Assembly: GCA_003135135.1 (NCBI GenBank)
Contig: PLDK01000043.1
Location: 77,734 to 129,106 of the forward strand
Direction of reading: 5' to 3'
Source of the DNA: Deltaproteobacteria bacterium
GTDB lineage: Bacteria; Desulfobacterota; Binatia; Binatales; Binataceae
Length of the DNA: 51,373 bases
Shown here: piece by piece, positions 2,198-10,112 of the stretch
Layout: each line of letters starts with the position of its first letter
Numbering within the stretch: position 1 is the first letter of the stretch
Made by a program: the position numbers and the translations under genes
Notes under the pieces: model-generated
The model's database searches: none
What the model was told of the DNA's origin: nothing
The model's input: the letters and a program-made list of their open reading frames with translations, nothing else

Positions 2198-4918
2198 ATG
2201 GAAAATTTATTTGCAAGCCGAGTTGGTGAGCCGAGGAAATACTCATCGCCAGTCACCCGGCCTTTGCTGTTACTGTCGATGTTGCTGGTTTCGATTCTGG
2301 TGTTCCCAGGATCGATGCAAGCTCAGACCCTCCCGCCGCTTGGAACGGCTGTCAATTTCGGCATACTAGGCTCCACTGGGGTCACGAATACCGGCGCAAG
2401 CATCGTTCAAGGCGATGTTGGAGTGTGGGCAGGGACGTCGATAATTGGATTTCCGCCCGGGCTCCTGACCGGGTCGCTTTACACTGGTCCTGGTCCCGGC
2501 CCTGCAGAGACAGCCAACGCGGACGCCACCACCGCATATAATGATGCTGCTAATACTGTATTAAATCCCTGCCCCGGCGGTAACGATCTGACCGGCCAGG
2601 ATCTTGGGAATGTCAGCAGCCCGATCGCCCCCCTCCTTCCAGGGGTGTACTGTTTCTCCACCTCAGCCCAATTGACCGGGACGCTCTACCTTGACTTCAC
2701 CAGCTCCAGTAGTTTCTTCATCTTCCAGATCGGCAGTACCCTCACCACGGCGAGCGCCTCCAGCGTGGTGGCAGTTGGTTCTCCGCCGGCGTGCGTTGCC
2801 AATAACATCATCTGGCAGGTCGGCAGTTCTGCGACCCTGGGAACGGGTACCACGTTCTTAGGAGACATCATTGCGTTGGCCTCGATCACCGATAACGGGC
2901 CTGACGGGATCGTAGGCGCATCGAGCGAGGGCAGCTTTTGGGCCCTCACTGGCGCGGTGACATTGTCAGGCGCCACTACCGTTACAGCATGTGGCAGCAG
3001 CGCGCCCCCGCCCCCCACGCTTCCCTACATACAGGCGCTGAAGTTCTGTGACATCAATGGAGACGGTCTGCTCGATACGGGCGATCCTGGTATCAGCAAC
3101 TGGGAGATTATATTAAGCCCCGATCCGAACAAGTGCAGTGGGTTTACCAACGCGGACGGACTACTCACGTGCGCCGACCTCCCCTCCCCCGACATTTACG
3201 ATGTGTACGAGGGCAGCAAGCCCAACTGCGTGCATACCGCGACCTGCATCAACGGCGTGTGCGGCACTTGCAGCACGACTAGCGCAGATCTATGCGGAAA
3301 GACCAGCGATTGTCCTGCGGGTCAGACCTGCGTGCCGACGTACCCACCAGCGAATCCCGTCGCGATCGATCTGACGAGCGCGACTTCGCACGATCAGGTG
3401 GAGTTCGGCAACGTCTGTCTGGGAACCGGCGGCGGGAAGACGATGGCATTCTGGGAGTCCGCGAAAGGGCAGGCGCTGATAGATAGCACCGACTTGACGT
3501 TGCTGGATGGTCTCAATCTGGTCAAAGCGAACGGAACGTCCTTCAAGCCCAGCTCGAACGTGCAGCTCAAGAGCTGGCTGGCGGCCGCGACAACCACCAA
3601 CATGGCGTACATGCTCTCGGCTGAGCTCGCTGCGATGGAATTGAACGTGCAGCATGGCTATGTGAACGGTACTGCGCTGGTATTGGCCGGGACGGCTCCG
3701 GGCACATGCAGTGTTCCAGACCTATCCCTCCCCGGCTTCATTACTATCGACAACCTGATGGCCGACGCATCCGCCCAACTCGCGGCATCGGGCGGCAATT
3801 TGACGCTGGCTGGCAATCCCGCACGCGTATGCCAGACGTTCACCGAGAACGCGCTGAACGTGACGAACAACAATGCGAACTTCGCTGGTTGTCCGACGCC
3901 TGTAGTACGGCCAACGACCTGTCCCACTGCGACTCCAACCGCGACGGCCACGGCGACCGCGACGGCGACAGCCACTGCGACTCCAACCGCGACGGCCACG
4001 GCGACCGCGACGGCGACCGCGACGACGACGGCGACGGCCACTGCGAGTGCAACCGCGACGGCGACGGCCACTGTGACTGCAACCGCGACGGCCACTGCTA
4101 CTGCAGTTGCAACCTTGACGCCGACCGCGACTGCGACCGCAACCGCGACGGCCACTGCGACGGCCACCGCGACGCCAACTGCGACACCGACGACAACGGT
4201 CGTCTTCCTTACCTCCGGCACTAGCTGGACCGTTCCGAGCAACTGGAACAGCTCCAATAATACTATCGAGTGCATCGGCGGTGGTGCTGGTGGTGCTAGC
4301 GACTCGGCAGGCGGAGCGGGTGCTGGCGGTGGTGGCGGCTATAGCAAGATCAGCAATCTCTCGCTGACTCCTAGCGGTAGCGTTACCTACGCAATCGGAA
4401 CTGGGGGCATCGCGAACGTCAGCGGCGGAAGCAGTTATTTCAACGGCACGAGCTTAGCTGGCTCCTCGTGCGGTGCCGCCGGCGGGTCAGCGGGGTCGGC
4501 TCATACGGGCGGCGCCGGTGGTGCAACTGCCAGCGGTGTCGGCACGACCAAGCATGAAGGCGGTGCAGGTGGCAGTGGCACTAGCGCCACCGGTTCTGCC
4601 GGCGGCGGGGGAGCGGCTGGCCTCCACGGGGCAGGCGTTAATGGTGCGAATGGGACAACAACGCAGACCGGTGCTGGTGGCTCAGGTGATGCGGGTGCTG
4701 GTGGCGCCGGCGGTGCTAACACCGGAGGCGCTGCAGGCGGAAACGGTACGGAATACTCAGCCTCACCTAAGTATGGGAGTGGGGGCGGCGGTGGCGGCGG
4801 GCATATCAACATCGTTGGCGGAGCCGGCGGCACATACGGCGCTGGTGCCGGCGGCAGTGGCGACGTGGGCGGTGTTGGCGCAGGCGGCCTATGCGTCATC
4901 ACCTACACAACACCCTAA
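2198..4918 (+). CDS. secreted mosaic adhesin: DUF3494 ice-binding-like domain, Thr/Ala stalk, glycine-rich tail
   Basis: 906 aa, with a long N-region, a hydrophobic segment (LLLLSMLLVSILVF) and a likely signal-peptidase site after MQA at about residue 42. Residues about 48-266 match the DUF3494 ice-binding-like fold (FGILGSTGVTNTG, QGDVGVW, STSAQLTGTLYLD). Then comes a DINGDGLLDTGDPGISNWEI segment like SdrD/Cna-B or dockerin calcium-binding units (about 280-300), a Cys-rich patch (about 335-375) and a helical region (about 410-575). Residues 577-666 are almost pure Thr/Ala with Pro, a probable flexible or glycosylated stalk. Residues 667-906 are a glycine-rich domain opening with FLTSGTSWTVPSNW, as in phage-fibre-type Gly-rich domains. 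No sorting motif or C-terminal membrane anchor is visible. Ice binding is not demonstrated; adhesion or matrix roles are equally likely. Confidence 0.85.
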   Translation: MENLFASRVGEPRKYSSPVTRPLLLLSMLLVSILVFPGSMQAQTLPPLGTAVNFGILGSTGVTNTGASIVQGDVGVWAGTSIIGFPPGLLTGSLYTGPGPGPAETANADATTAYNDAANTVLNPCPGGNDLTGQDLGNVSSPIAPLLPGVYCFSTSAQLTGTLYLDFTSSSSFFIFQIGSTLTTASASSVVAVGSPPACVANNIIWQVGSSATLGTGTTFLGDIIALASITDNGPDGIVGASSEGSFWALTGAVTLSGATTVTACGSSAPPPPTLPYIQALKFCDINGDGLLDTGDPGISNWEIILSPDPNKCSGFTNADGLLTCADLPSPDIYDVYEGSKPNCVHTATCINGVCGTCSTTSADLCGKTSDCPAGQTCVPTYPPANPVAIDLTSATSHDQVEFGNVCLGTGGGKTMAFWESAKGQALIDSTDLTLLDGLNLVKANGTSFKPSSNVQLKSWLAAATTTNMAYMLSAELAAMELNVQHGYVNGTALVLAGTAPGTCSVPDLSLPGFITIDNLMADASAQLAASGGNLTLAGNPARVCQTFTENALNVTNNNANFAGCPTPVVRPTTCPTATPTATATATATATATATPTATATATATATATTTATATASATATATATVTATATATATAVATLTPTATATATATATATATATPTATPTTTVVFLTSGTSWTVPSNWNSSNNTIECIGGGAGGASDSAGGAGAGGGGGYSKISNLSLTPSGSVTYAIGTGGIANVSGGSSYFNGTSLAGSSCGAAGGSAGSAHTGGAGGATASGVGTTKHEGGAGGSGTSATGSAGGGGAAGLHGAGVNGANGTTTQTGAGGSGDAGAGGAGGANTGGAAGGNGTEYSASPKYGSGGGGGGGHINIVGGAGGTYGAGAGGSGDVGGVGAGGLCVITYTTP
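3925..4197 (+). repeat. coding low-complexity tandem repeat (Thr-Ala stalk)
   Basis: Degenerate tandem repeat built from ACN-GCN codon pairs with periodic CCN insertions, all in frame with the surface protein. Units such as GCGACGGCCACGGCGACC recur at 12- and 18-base spacing, a pattern prone to slippage that keeps frame only for multiples of three. Confidence 0.85.
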
Positions 4919-5239
4919 CAAACCTGAAGGCGACCTACAGGGCGAGACGTGAATCGAGGGAAAATACTCGAGCGAGATGGCGACCAGCGTGGTGTGTTTC
5001 ACTCTATCCACAGTCAGTTTACGACGGTGCCGAAGGGTTCGGCGGATGTGTTCAGGCTGGTTCCAGGGGGAACATTTCTTGACGGTAAATTCGCTCAAGA
5101 CGGTTGACGCCGGGGACTGGTTTGTGGGAAAAGAATTAACGAAAATATCCGGGGGCAGGACAAAATTCAGGGCTCTGCGGATTTGTGCGAGGCAGGCCAG
5201 AAGCCGTTTTCTGGCGCGAGTTACCAGGGAGGGACGGTA
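4919..5239. other. 321-bp gap between the adhesin and the collagen-like trio
   Basis: No convincing gene: the two short readings here lack ribosome-binding sites and family features. The right end carries GGAGGGACGG just before the ATG at 5240. It probably holds the promoter or leader of the collagen-like genes, but I see no clear -35/-10 pair or known riboswitch. Confidence 0.5.
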
Positions 5240-6235
5240 ATGCATGTATCATTCAGGCATGCGCGACGCGTGATGTTAGGCGCCGCGCTGGGGGTGCTGT
5301 TTCTCGCCGTTATGCCAGGCACCGGTCAGGCGCAGACGTGTTCCGACGGGACATGTGAAATCTGCATATCGCCGAAACACCAGACCGTAAACGTGCACGG
5401 CGGCAGCGCTTGCAAAGCACCCAACCGGTATTTCCAATGGGCTCAGACCGGGGCGGCGGGATCGGCCGGACCGATGGGTCTCATGGGTGTGGAAGGGCTA
5501 CAAGGACCGACGGGACCATCTGGCCCGAATGGACCGCAGGGTCCGGCGGGACCGGCGGGTGCAGTCGGAGTGGTTGGACCGACCGGGGCTACAGGTCCTG
5601 GAGGCCTAGCCGGAATAACGGGTCAGCAGGGACTGCAGGGATTGCAGGGGGCAACGGGTCCAACAGGTCCGACGGGACCGTCGGGTACGAACGGAACCAA
5701 CGGAACGCAATCGTTCCTGCTGGTTGGCGGCGACCTGGGCGCTACGCTCCAAGCTTACAATTATTCTACCTTCTTTAATCAATTTTTACTGGGCAACGCG
5801 TCATCCACCCCTCCGGGGAACAGCCCTCTCTACTACGGCCCGGGCAACGGCGTTGACGCTATTAACAACAGTGAAGCGGTGCCGATCGATGCTGGTACCG
5901 CCAGCCAACTCTACGTGCAGACCTCGAGCGTTCCCGGAGACGGTGAGAGCTACACGTTTGACCTATTGATAAACGGCAACCCTACCCCCGTTACATGCGC
6001 GATCGGTCTTCCCCCGAACGCGACGCTGACCGAGTGCAAAGACCTGGTTGATACACAGGCCTATAACGCGGGCGATACCATCGAACTTGAAGGCACAGCA
6101 TCGTGCTGCTCGAATCCGACCAACGTGATGTGGTCAGTGGTTATCACGCAGACTACGCCGGTGAGCGCCCCAATCCCGCTCGTGGCGAAGGGCGGGCAAC
6201 CCACAGCCGTAAACAAGATACAGGCGCCACAGTGA
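5240..6235 (+). CDS. secreted collagen-like protein 1
   Basis: 331 aa from the ATG at 5240, preceded by GGAGGGACGG. The signal peptide ends near GQA-QT (residue 31). A short Cys-containing N-domain follows ([10 protein letters not shown], ending FQWAQT), then an uninterrupted run of Gly-X-Y triplets from residue 71 to 154 (5450-5701): 28 triplets ending GTN GTN. The run is rich in GPT/GPS/GPA and holds a single charged residue (GVE). The C-terminal domain (about 160-315) has the conserved pieces [59 protein letters not shown] and MWSVVI, which recur in the next two proteins. It looks like a beta-rich trimerising head similar in layout to BclA or C1q. A probable extracellular trimer; the ligand is unknown. 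Confidence 0.9.
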
Positions 6236-6302
6236 ACGCACGATGAGAGAGCAACAAGTAAGGCAGGGTACGAGAATGGCAACAGTCAGGGAGGGGACCA
6301 GA

Positions 6303-7193
6303 ATGCCTCAATCTTATAAGAACGCGTGGCGCTGGCTCGTCGGAGCATCGGCGGCTGCGATGTTGATAGCGAGTATCGCGCCGGCGGCAAACGCGCAGGA
6401 AATCTCGCTGTGCATATCGAGGAAGGGCAAAATCGTTGGGATCGACATCCCGTGCGAGAACCATAACATCCGATTGGACTGGAACCTGCCCGGAGCTGCG
6501 GGCTCCCAGGGGCTGCAGGGTCCAACAGGCCCCACAGGTCCAATGGGCGCGGCGGGTCCCACAGGTTCGCAAGGCGCTGTAGGTGTAGCGGGTCTCCAGG
6601 GGCCGATGGGGTCGGTGGGCCTGACGGGCCCTGAGGGAGCGCAAGGAGTGACGGGCGCTGCAGGACCTACCGGAAATACCGGGCCGACGGGATTTATGGG
6701 TTCGGCGGGACCTACAGGTCCTTCGGGCACCAACGGCACCAATGGCGACTATGTTACGACTCTGACCGGTGGTTCGCTGGGCGACACGATCGGCGCGGAT
6801 GCGGGTATTCAGTTGACCGATGCCCTCGTCAACCCCCCCGTCCTCTATATGGGGCCGGGTAACGGAGCGGATTTCACCCAGTCGACAGTCGCAGTACCTG
6901 TTCCGGGTGGTGTGGCGTCCGATCTGCAGGTCGTGGTTTCGGGCGAGCCAGAAGCAGCGGATGCGGTCGGGACCGGTACATACACATTCTCGGTATGCGA
7001 CAACGGTAATTGCGCCACAGACATAACATGCCCAATTGTAGGCACCGCCACGACCTGCTCTGACGACACCGACACGTGGGGTTTCAGTCCGGGCGACACT
7101 ATCTCCATTCAAGCCTACAGCTCGGCGGGCACTCCCGCCACGGTCGATGTGTCGTGGTCTCTGGATTACGCCCTACCCGCGCCCCCGATATAA
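6303..7193 (+). CDS. secreted collagen-like protein 2
   Basis: 296 aa. I chose the ATG at 6303 because AGGGAGGGG precedes it and the resulting N-terminus ([19 protein letters not shown]) aligns with protein 3; upstream in-frame ATGs at 6243 and 6276 give poor signal peptides. Cleavage is likely after ANA at residue 31. The N-domain is [15 protein letters not shown] followed by LDW, nearly identical in plan to protein 3. The Gly-X-Y run covers residues 64-147 (6492-6743): 28 triplets, again ending GTN GTN, with one charged residue (GPE). The C-terminal head has [50 protein letters not shown] and VDVSWSLDY. Co-directional, 67 bases after protein 1. Confidence 0.9.
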
Positions 7194-7272
7194 GCGGTGC
7201 AGGAGTGGATGAATGAGTTCGTTAGCTGAACGCGGAACGGCCAGAGGGCAAAAGAAAATGGAGGGCGTCAAC

Positions 7273-8190
7273 ATGCCTGCTTCCTTGAAATTCGCGTGGC
7301 GCTGGATCGTCGGTGCGACCGCCGCCGCGATAATCGGCCTGGTAGCACTGCCAGGCGTTGGCCAGGCGCAAACTTTGTCGATTTGTATCAACAAGGGCAA
7401 CGGCAGAGTCAGGGGCATCGATGTTCCATGCCTCGCATCTCAGATCCAACTCTCGTGGGATATCACTGGACCACAGGGAGCGACGGGACCGACCGGACCG
7501 GCCGGATATGCGGGGCCGGCGGGTGTCCAAGGCGGGGCGGGTCTTGGAGGAGCGACAGGTCCGAGTGGGCCACAAGGAGCGGTGGGACCACAGGGTGCGC
7601 AGGGTCTTGCCGGGCTCACGGGACCTACGGGGCCATCAGGAATTCAGGGTAATCCTGGAATTCGAGGACTGGCCGGTCTGGCCGGCGCTACAGGCGTTGG
7701 GGGCACCAACGGCACAAGCGAGACCGGCAAAACCTTCCTGACCGGAGGTTCGCTGGGTACGTTTGGCTCTGACGCAGGTGTCGCGTTGGCCGGAGTTAAT
7801 GGTCTTACCTTTCTGGGGCCGGGCAATGGCTCGCAGCAATATAACGGCGGTGCCCTTGAGACCGCGGTGCCGATGAATGATGCGGGCGAAGCATACAACT
7901 TCTTTGTACGTATCGATCAAGCCCCGGGCAACGATCCGGGGACTGGCGTTCCCATGAGCTACACCTTCTACCTCTGCGACTTCCTCTCCCCTAATGATTG
8001 CGCCTACGCTAGTTCTTGTACCATCACCAACCCGGACACGACCTGTAATGACCTCTACAACACGACCGGCGCCTTCAACCCATTCGCCGCGGGCGATTTG
8101 CTCGCGGTGTGGGCGGAGCCCAATGACGAATTCGCGAATCCTGCGGACGTGACGTGGTCGGTCACTTATGACAAATCGTCACCGTTCTAG
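7273..8190 (+). CDS. secreted collagen-like protein 3
   Basis: 305 aa from the ATG at 7273 (MPASLKFAWRWIVGATAAA), preceded by ATGGAGGGCGTCAAC; the longer reading from 7213 would bury the signal peptide. Cleavage is likely after GQA at residue 32. The N-domain is CINKGNGRVRGIDVPC followed by LSW. The Gly-X-Y run covers residues 66-149 (7468-7719): 28 triplets ending GTN GTS, with one charged residue (GIR). The C-terminal head repeats the family blocks (GGSLGTFG, LGPGNG, AVPMNDAG, SYTFYLC, SSCTI, TTCND, AGDLLAVW, VTWSVTYD) and is slightly enlarged by an FLSPNDCAYA loop with an extra cysteine. Last gene of the trio, followed by a strong terminator. Confidence 0.9.
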   Translation: MPASLKFAWRWIVGATAAAIIGLVALPGVGQAQTLSICINKGNGRVRGIDVPCLASQIQLSWDITGPQGATGPTGPAGYAGPAGVQGGAGLGGATGPSGPQGAVGPQGAQGLAGLTGPTGPSGIQGNPGIRGLAGLAGATGVGGTNGTSETGKTFLTGGSLGTFGSDAGVALAGVNGLTFLGPGNGSQQYNGGALETAVPMNDAGEAYNFFVRIDQAPGNDPGTGVPMSYTFYLCDFLSPNDCAYASSCTITNPDTTCNDLYNTTGAFNPFAAGDLLAVWAEPNDEFANPADVTWSVTYDKSSPF

Positions 8191-8219
8191 CAGATCGAGA
8201 TTACTTTCGTGACTGAGGA

Positions 8220-8255
8220 CCCCCGGGACGCAAAGCCCGGGGGTTTTCTTTTTCT
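8220..8255 (+). terminator. intrinsic terminator after the collagen-like trio
   Basis: Perfect 8-bp stem CCCCCGGG (8220-8227) with CCCGGGGG (8236-8243), loop ACGCAAAG, followed by TTTTCTTTTTCT. It closes the plus-strand island and may also serve the convergent LLM gene, whose stop is 10 bases further on. Confidence 0.9.
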
Positions 8256-8265
8256 GCAAACGGAG

Positions 8266-9276
8266 CTACTTGAGGCGCGGCAACACTTCGGCGCCGAACC
8301 TGTCCAGCGAGCGACGCGCCTTGGCGGGATCGAGTCCCGGCAACTGCATCACGACGATCAACTCGGTCATCGGAGTCGAAGCGAGTACTTCTTCGAGCTT
8401 TGCGGCGACTTCGGAGGCCGTTCCGAGCACGCTGGTGCGTCTAAGCCTGTCCGGGTCCGGACGAATCAGCACCTTGCTCTGGTCGGTAGTGCCGGCAGCA
8501 GCCGAGAGCCATAGCCCGTAAAGCTCGGCCTGGTACATGAGCGCGTCGCGGGTGTCGCGCCACGCCTGTTCCTCGCTGTCGGCGACGTAAACCACGCGGC
8601 TGTTCGCGATACTGTAGCGGGCGGGATCCTTGCCGGCGGCTTTGAGCGCCTCGAGATAGATCCCGATTTCCCTGCGGCCACCGACGCACGCGAACGACAG
8701 ATCGAGCTCGGCGGCGCGCCGAATCGCTTTCGCCGCGCCTGCTCCCCACAGCAGCTCGGGATGCGGCTCGGTCACGGGCCGTGGCAGCACGCGCACGTCG
8801 CGGAACTTGAAATACCTGCCGTCGAAACTGAATCGCTCACCGCTCCACGCAAGCTTGAGAATCTCGATGGTCTCGAGCGTGCGGCCCAGTCGCTGCGCGC
8901 GCGGCACGCCGAAGCCCTCGAACTCCTCGGCCCGGTAGCCCAGGCCAATTCCCAGCCGCAGCCGGCCGCCCGAGACTACATCGACGAACGCCGCATCCTC
9001 GGCAAGCCTCAGCGGATGATAAAACGGCGCCAGCAGGACGTAGGTGCCGATGCTGACGCGGGTGGTGCGGGCCGCGATGGCAGCCGCCGCGGGCATCAGC
9101 GCGGGCAGGTAGCCGTCGTCGGTGAAATGATGCTCGGTGAGCCAGATGGAATCGAAGCCGAGCTGCTCGGCGGCCTCGGCCTGTGCGAGCGACTCGCGGT
9201 AGAGATCGCGAAACGACAGCGGCGAGCCCGGAGGATTGCGGAAATCGAGCTGATAACCAACTTTCACCTTGCGCAC
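8266..9276 (-). CDS. LLM-class (luciferase-like) flavin or F420-dependent oxidoreductase
   Basis: 336 aa. Bacterial-luciferase-like TIM-barrel enzyme using FMNH2 or F420. Family features are the N-terminal LAQAEAAEQLGFDSIWLTEHHF, the TRVSIGTYVLL strand, the HPLRLAEDAAFVDVVSGGRL segment and GLGYRAEEFEGFGV, which in this family binds the cofactor phosphate. The GTG start at 9276 has AGGTGAATC upstream at good spacing. The substrate cannot be read from sequence; monooxygenase and F420 reductase members look alike. Next upstream on the same strand is an SDR gene 56 bases away, so they may be co-transcribed. Confidence 0.9.
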   Translation of the reverse strand: MRKVKVGYQLDFRNPPGSPLSFRDLYRESLAQAEAAEQLGFDSIWLTEHHFTDDGYLPALMPAAAAIAARTTRVSIGTYVLLAPFYHPLRLAEDAAFVDVVSGGRLRLGIGLGYRAEEFEGFGVPRAQRLGRTLETIEILKLAWSGERFSFDGRYFKFRDVRVLPRPVTEPHPELLWGAGAAKAIRRAAELDLSFACVGGRREIGIYLEALKAAGKDPARYSIANSRVVYVADSEEQAWRDTRDALMYQAELYGLWLSAAAGTTDQSKVLIRPDPDRLRRTSVLGTASEVAAKLEEVLASTPMTELIVVMQLPGLDPAKARRSLDRFGAEVLPRLK

Positions 9277-9332
9277 GATTCACCTCATGGCGGAAGTTGC
9301 GACGGGTTGCGTGTCCGTTGTCCGCGCGGCAC

Positions 9333-10112
9333 TCAACGCGCGGCGAGACCGCCGTCAACAATCAATTCCGTGCCAGTGATATAGGACGCGTCGTCGGAGA
9401 GAAGAAAGACGATCGCATTTGCGATCTCCCACGGCGTTCCCTGCCGGCGCAGGGGGATTCGCGCGGCGACGGCGCTCTCGCGATCGCCGACCAAGCGGCG
9501 CACCATCGAGGAATCGATCAGCCCGGGCAGGATCGTGTTGACGCGGATGTTGTCGCGCGCGTGGGAAACCGCGGCCGAGCGTGAAAGCCCCAGGATCGCG
9601 GCCTTGGTCGCCTCGTAGGAAATCACCGAGTTGCTGCGCAACGCGGCCAGCGATGAAACGTTGACGATCGCGCCGCCGCCGGCTTTTGCGATCTCGGGCA
9701 CCGCGTAGCGCATCATCAGGAAATGGCCGCGCAGGTTGACCGCCAGCATCGTGTCGAACTGCGCGGTGGTGGTATTCAGCAAGTTGGCGCCGATGGCGAT
9801 TCCGACGTTATTCACCAGCAGATGGAGCGCGGAGAACGCGCGTATGGTTGCCTCGACGGCGCCGCGGCATTGCTCCTCGATGCTGACGTCGGCGGCGACC
9901 GCTTCGGCGCGTCCACCTTCGTCGCGAATTGCGGCGGCGGTTTGTTCAGCGAGTTCGAGCGAGCGATCGGCGACCATCACGGCCGCGCCTTCGCGCGCGC
10001 ACACTATTGCGGTGGCGCGACCGTTGCCGATGGAGAGTTCCTCACCCGCTTTCGCCGGTCCGTCCGCGCCGCCTCCGACGATTAACGCTACTTTGCCCGT
10101 CAGCCGAGCCAT
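9333..10112 (-). CDS. SDR family NAD(P)-dependent oxidoreductase
   Basis: 259 aa from the ATG at 10112 (MARLTGKVALIVGG), with GAGGAG 8 bases upstream; a TTG five codons earlier is less likely. Classical SDR features: NNVG (usual NNAG), catalytic Ser in VNVSS, the YEATK Tyr-x-x-x-Lys pair, the PGLIDSSM segment and the C-terminal ITGTELIVDGG. The cofactor loop is odd: between GGGAD and SIGNGRATA there are about ten extra residues (GPAKAGEEL), where most SDRs have a compact TGxxxGIG. This resembles an SDR subgroup with a GPGWGNG-type loop. Probably oxidises or reduces a hydroxy/keto group; substrate unknown. Confidence 0.92.
   Translation of the reverse strand: MARLTGKVALIVGGGADGPAKAGEELSIGNGRATAIVCAREGAAVMVADRSLELAEQTAAAIRDEGGRAEAVAADVSIEEQCRGAVEATIRAFSALHLLVNNVGIAIGANLLNTTTAQFDTMLAVNLRGHFLMMRYAVPEIAKAGGGAIVNVSSLAALRSNSVISYEATKAAILGLSRSAAVSHARDNIRVNTILPGLIDSSMVRRLVGDRESAVAARIPLRRQGTPWEIANAIVFLLSDDASYITGTELIVDGGLAAR

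Follow-up and report, generated by a model that had tools for sequence, protein, structure and literature searches.

Length-matched tandem collagen genes of Binataceae as a candidate bacterial heterotrimer

Introduction

In C1q, three chains encoded by clustered genes each carry a short Cys-bearing N-terminal segment, a collagen rod and a jelly-roll head. Bacterial collagens are described as homotrimers in the available part of a review and, in the case of C. difficile BclA, the accessible text of one study supports homotrimers and does not support mixed heads (PMC13188886). A natural bacterial collagen heterotrimer, or bacterial collagen chains of matched length, was not found in searches of an open-licence library of papers. 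In Pasteuria ramosa, CLP genes occur as triplets, to which each of three sequence groups contributes one gene and in which both linear order and orientation are fixed, an organization that a 2026 paper, in its available part, says seems unique to this bacterium (PMC13233619); the function of the CLP/PCL triplets is given as unknown in the available part of PMC10329263. The words 'heterotrimer' and 'trimer' are absent from PMC13233619, as are 'trimer' and 'triple helix' from PMC10329263, and the accessible portions of both make no mention of matched run lengths. Here we describe three tandem collagen-like genes, A, B and C, located at positions 5240 to 8190 of a stretch of 51,373 nucleotides (the window) that covers positions 77,734 to 129,106 of the forward strand of contig PLDK01000043.1, from the Deltaproteobacteria bacterium assembly GCA_003135135.1 (Binatia; Binatales; Binataceae), and we compare them with related trios of genes.

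Like the triplets of P. ramosa, with which they were compared by description only, these trios consist of three collagen genes on the same strand, one per type and in a fixed order, the order labels agreeing with the tree in five trios. P. ramosa is a Daphnia parasite of the Bacillota, whereas the present trios belong to another phylum, and thus they are a second collagen gene-triplet system, one for which there is evidence as to why three genes are required. Judging from the sequences, we consider it quite probable that A, B and C form one collagen heterotrimer with 1:1:1 stoichiometry and a layout like that of C1q.

Three collagen-like genes with equal flank lengths

The three genes lie in tandem on one strand, with intergenic gaps of less than 80 bp, and their features are as follows.

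5240..6235, plus strand: chain A gene, from the open reading frame and domain reading; 331 aa; N segment with four Cys, 29-triplet run, head
6303..7193, plus strand: chain B gene; 296 aa from the ATG at 6303, 305 aa from the ATG at 6276; N segment with two Cys, 29-triplet run, head
7273..8190, plus strand: chain C gene; 305 aa; N segment with two Cys, 28-triplet run, head
5450..5710, plus strand: Gly-X-Y run of chain A, 29 triplets, residues 71-157
6492..6752, plus strand: Gly-X-Y run of chain B, 29 triplets, residues 73-159 (6276 start)
7468..7719, plus strand: Gly-X-Y run of chain C, 28 triplets, residues 66-149

Each chain shows a signal-like N-terminus (by eye), followed by a short Cys-bearing segment ending in W-x3 and a single Gly-X-Y run without interruptions; the C-terminal heads are related to one another. 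The Pfam family Collagen (PF01391) is matched above its curated cut-off of 27.2 bits in A, B and C (46.4, 54.9 and 41.7 bits, respectively), and the five PF01391 matches at E ≤ 0.001 in the window's own genome all fall within these genes. Partial NCBIfam matches link the Gly-X-Y region to Scl1 and Scl2 of Streptococcus and Lcl of Legionella, but they reach 35-52 bits against cut-offs of 325-500 and lie mainly on the collagen part. The heads are 35-38% identical to one another and the genes are clearly paralogous. The organization recognized in the initial annotation, namely three tandem genes with a signal-like N-terminus, Cys segment, run and related head, thus holds, with a corrected triplet count.

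The same annotation had counted 28 triplets in each run. This equality stands up to a shared GTN-GT(N/S) motif, where the count stops (GTN GTN in A and B, GTN GTS in C), but it omits the next triplet, GTQ in A and GDY in B, and the strict runs are 29/29/28. We also used a flank length that needs no choice of last triplet. Its start is a conserved Trp that stands four residues ahead of the run, and its end is the first Gly-Gly within the head. It is 96 residues in A, B and C alike, and for this reason the case for matched length is stronger than first stated.

Genomes are labelled here as G000 (the window's own), G001 and G002 (same genus) and G016 (same family). A further claim, one charged residue per run, holds when each run is taken as 28 triplets (GVE at triplet 5, GPE at 16, GIR at 22), but the 29th triplet of B, GDY, adds an Asp. 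As a design feature the single charge was rejected, since most chains of G001 and G002 have several charges in their runs.

Length matching in related trios

At least five trios were found in at least four genomes, with one each in G000, G001 and G002 and two in succession in G016. PF01391 was searched in the window's genome and those of relatives, 58 in all, of which 28 matched at E ≤ 0.001, and in another 80 from the class, of which 40 matched at E ≤ 1e-5; the trio survey covered chosen stretches among the matches listed, and trios with unrelated heads may be missed by it. In addition, a profile built from 15 heads (alignment A2) matched 6 of 41 genomes of the family and 12 of 148 genomes of the class, including those six.

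The shared length changes more than two-fold between trios. Flank lengths are 171/171/171 in G001, 69/69/69 in the first trio of G016 and 141/141/141 in the second. Strict runs are 54/54/53 in G001 and 44/44/43 in the second trio of G016, and in these two trios and that of the window, that is, at three different rod lengths out of five trios, the run of chain C lacks one triplet and its linker has three extra residues. When the B and C chains are permuted among the trios, no other of the 14,400 arrangements equals the true one in tightness of flank length; for run length, 4 of 14,400 are as tight. Drawn at random from 52 non-trio collagen genes, which serve as a rough background, three runs agree to within 1 triplet in 0.43% of cases; the lengths of this background were typed by hand, and genes cut by a contig edge, artefact-like frames and L049, L050, L105 and L138 were left out. 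None of the three adjacent pairs of non-trio collagen genes that were seen is matched in length (68 vs 89 in L129, 35+52 vs 24+28 in L037, 7+22 vs 41 in L094). This survey of homologous loci had been set beforehand as the refuting test, and the lengths it returned are not unrelated: they are equal or nearly so within trios and differ between them. The register-matched heterotrimer put forward initially is thus supported by length matching across five trios, from which we infer the assembly itself.

Three homotrimers, AAA, BBB and CCC, might instead be produced from one operon and stand side by side in one surface layer, with their rods held to one height. According to the available part of PMC13188886, AlphaFold3 models of mixed C. 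difficile BclA heads show no interaction, and single-gene collagens with heads related to those of the trios exist in the class, both of which fit such an arrangement. Layer height, however, should tolerate a difference of a triplet or two, and four of the five trios agree to the residue. The shorter run and longer linker of chain C, repeated at three rod lengths, fit partners in one rod, and in G138 two non-trio collagen genes with related heads have 51 and 56 triplets (one pair only). Three homotrimers therefore appear unlikely to us.

Co-assembly need not be strictly 1:1:1, since length matching alone leaves the stoichiometry unfixed, and mixtures such as A2B and A2C could arise if the heads were interchangeable, as their identity within the window trio might allow. 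The tandem genes, however, number 3, 3, 3 and 6 in the four genomes, with one order of types throughout, and we judge such mixtures distinctly improbable by comparison with the 1:1:1 heterotrimer.

In G016 (L042:1-6123), the short trio, whose first gene has lost its 5' end at the contig edge, is followed by the long one, and a single G016 cell may produce two rods that differ in length. Elsewhere, one related head was found in G003 on a 920-residue gene with five runs, and G024 gave only a weak head match with stops. Outside the family, heads were matched in six of the 148 class genomes (G040, G070, G074, G075, G112 and G138); the stretches fetched from these six hold single collagen genes or none, except in G074, where two adjacent collagen genes have unequal runs, one of them ended by the contig edge. 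The single-gene collagen observed at L095:9248-12379, minus strand, is 1043 aa long; its run counts 234 triplets, and its head is related to those of the trios. In 395 genomes drawn across the phylum, with the best 10 candidates per genome scored, only G000 and G001 are among the head-profile matches listed, G002 and G016 being either not drawn or missed. Chain B (P0002) gave 18 pattern matches and no relative in genome_contigs, and alignment A3 found nothing or little in viral_contigs.

Chain types and changes of rod length

With labels taken solely from gene order, the chains fall into clusters by type, with 2 label changes on the tree, which is the minimum possible; 0 of 200 shuffles are as low. 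In a nine-chain tree of the three same-genus trios, types A and B are supported at 100/99 and C at 72/74, and in a head-only tree the A heads and the B heads of these trios each group, with little else resolved. The G016 branches are long in the 15-chain tree. As chain types cluster across trios, the triplication and the split into types predate the changes of length.

The identity of the runs bears on the idea that recent tandem duplication or gene conversion, by which one run was copied three times, made the lengths equal as a side effect. At X and Y positions, identity is 0.244 for same-trio pairs (15), 0.223 for pooled shuffled triplets, 0.286 for pairs of the same type from different trios (30) and 0.203 for the rest (60). 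Compared with each pair's own shuffles, z exceeds 2 in 0 of 15 same-trio pairs (mean 0.29) and in 9 of 30 same-type pairs (mean 1.40), and the long trio of G016, at 0.33-0.38, is to be read against its own shuffles at 0.31-0.33. Within a trio, the runs thus resemble each other no more than shuffled ones do, and this speaks against gene conversion. In G001, a separate 72-bp (8-triplet) tandem array occurs in each of the three genes, at similar axial positions (triplets ~12-34 in A, 11-36 in B and 11-39 in C), and the unit sequences differ among the genes. Tandem collagen repeats are prone to recombination and the three genes are paralogs, but copying as the cause of equal lengths is hardly credible and was rejected, given the run identities, chain types that cluster across species and not within a locus, and the differing array units of G001. 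In the trios of the window, G002 and G016, no 72-bp arrays were reported; the window's chain C shows a weak 8-triplet periodicity in the protein (z 4.1), with DNA identity at 72 bp not raised.

The proteins flanking the trio indicate how the genomes are related. The LLM-type oxidoreductase of the window is identical at 324 of 336 positions to that of G001 and at 306 of 336 to that of G002, and the SDR protein at 243 of 259 and 238 of 259, respectively, and for this reason G001 is taken as the window's nearer relative. The collagen chains group otherwise, A joining G000 with G002 and B joining G001 with G002. A gain of length in G001 is the simplest reading, a loss in the other trios being a possible alternative; whether by gain or loss, the three genes changed length together. 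We find it likely that the rod length of an ABC collagen evolves by synchronized insertions in three genes, as an independent bacterial counterpart of the C1q architecture.

Predicted fold of the heads

The heads were delimited as follows.

5726..6160, plus strand: head of chain A, from alignments A2 and A4; model with mean pLDDT 71.6, first 30 residues below 50
6768..7184, plus strand: head of chain B, predicted jelly roll from Foldseek and VIA-align; model with mean pLDDT 86.3
7744..8184, plus strand: head of chain C, from alignment A2

None of the Pfam families matches the heads convincingly, and the head profile found nothing below E 0.16 among Protein Data Bank (PDB) sequences. With the B-head model, Foldseek returned three matches at E ≤ 0.001, namely cerebellin-1 (Cbln1, a C1q domain; E 5.2e-4, probability 1.00, TM ~0.5), ExsFA and, third, a phage baseplate protein; ExsF, EDA-A2, 4-1BBL, C1QL3 and many C1q/TNF chains follow further down. 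VIA-align placed a cyanophage tail protein first (Z 8.6), then ExsFA (8.5) and 4-1BBL (8.4), with BxpB and BclA among its rows, and its own warning is that Z near 8 can mean no more than a common arrangement. The A-head model gave weak matches, mostly to the same C1q/TNF-like families and none at E ≤ 0.001. The B head is thus predicted to be a jelly roll close to C1q/TNF heads, and the C1q/TNF-type folds that it matches are a group that includes known trimers.

The proposal of a C1q-like layout, part of the initial annotation, gained support from this predicted fold, and the B-head model matches the C1q-domain structures of Cbln1 and C1QL3. The likeness extends to the short Cys-bearing N segment, the collagen rod, a C-terminal head (in chain B a predicted jelly roll), the number of chains and the clustering of their genes, and suggests that the trio resembles C1q in layout; no homology is claimed. 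By contrast with C1q, no Pfam C1q match was obtained in the full chains (E ≤ 1) or in the 15 heads (E ≤ 0.1), and no kink, bouquet of rods or link to immunity or complement is in evidence for the trio. With BclA, the trio shares a bacterial collagen stalk and, from the B-head model, a predicted TNF/C1q-like head, the spore-surface proteins BclA, ExsFA and BxpB being among the fold matches of the B head, but chains A, B and C have no BclA-C Pfam match (E ≤ 1).

Proposed assembly

We propose the following model. One transcription unit would yield three exported chains, whose C-terminal heads, as C1q/TNF-like jelly rolls, would trimerize as A+B+C and thereby set chain choice and register. The triple helix would be nucleated at the heads and zip towards the N-terminal Cys segment. 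With a collagen rise of ~0.286 nm per residue, 87 residues would give a rigid rod of ~25 nm bearing a three-chain head, possibly a surface or secreted binding rod, perhaps one that displays a binding head. In such a rod an insertion in one chain would need matching in the other two, and sharing of one rod would account for equal length inside a trio together with drift between species.

Several observations weigh against this proposal. The G002 trio is off by one residue, with flank lengths of 99/100/99 when anchored on GGDLG, or 98/100/99 in the script output if the first GG of GGGDLG is taken, and its strict runs are 30/28/29. In the short trio of G016 the strict runs are 16/18/19, or 20/18/19 when counted across a Gly to Glu change at triplet 4 of its first chain (L042:2-769). 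Among the genomes searched with the head profile, trios occur only in four genomes of one family, three of them from one genus, and the independent evidence therefore amounts to about five length states. Support for type C is modest in both trees (57/49 in the 15-chain tree), and the A chains do not come together as a single group in the larger of them, the 15-chain tree (2 changes). No insertion point shared by the window and G001 runs was found, the best split differing between chains. The charges of the window trio are too few for a search of inter-chain salt bridges. Finally, the fold matches come from models of single chains, and phage proteins appear in the same match lists.

The Glu at triplet 4 of L042:2-769 is the sole Gly break inside the 15 runs and may be either a real change or an assembly error.

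If the 1:1:1 heterotrimer is correct, it would be a natural bacterial ABC collagen, directly testable, in which the predicted trimerizing head should set composition and register. The principle of a shared rod may also explain the function of the infectivity-linked CLP triplets of P. ramosa, and offers a testable answer there.

Putative transcription unit and neighbouring genes

A ribosome-binding-site-like GGGAGGG precedes the ATG of chain A. Ahead of chain B, a 27-bp direct repeat at 6251-6305 doubles the ribosome-binding site and the start codon, which gives rise to its two candidate starts. One further feature lies after chain C.

8215..8248, plus strand: terminator-like hairpin from a hairpin scan, 13 pairs, with a T tail

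It has the longest stem among 7 terminator-like sites in 4900-8400, where 3.2 are expected by chance, and is the likely end of the transcription unit as far as the sequence indicates.

Upstream of the trio, 2198-4918 on the plus strand encodes a 906-aa protein in which an Ice_binding-like domain (PF11999, E 5.2e-39) is accompanied by a long linker of Thr/Ala/Pro repeats and a C-terminal part rich in Gly. It was dropped as a component of the trio, as it does not adjoin the trio in G002. A Thr/Ala/Pro tail similar to that of this protein ends chain C in G001 (L035). Downstream, at 8266-10112 on the opposite (minus) strand, lie genes for an LLM-class oxidoreductase and an SDR protein (named by eye). 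They keep this place next to the trio in G001 and G002 as in G000, and a functional link between them and the trio is not evident.
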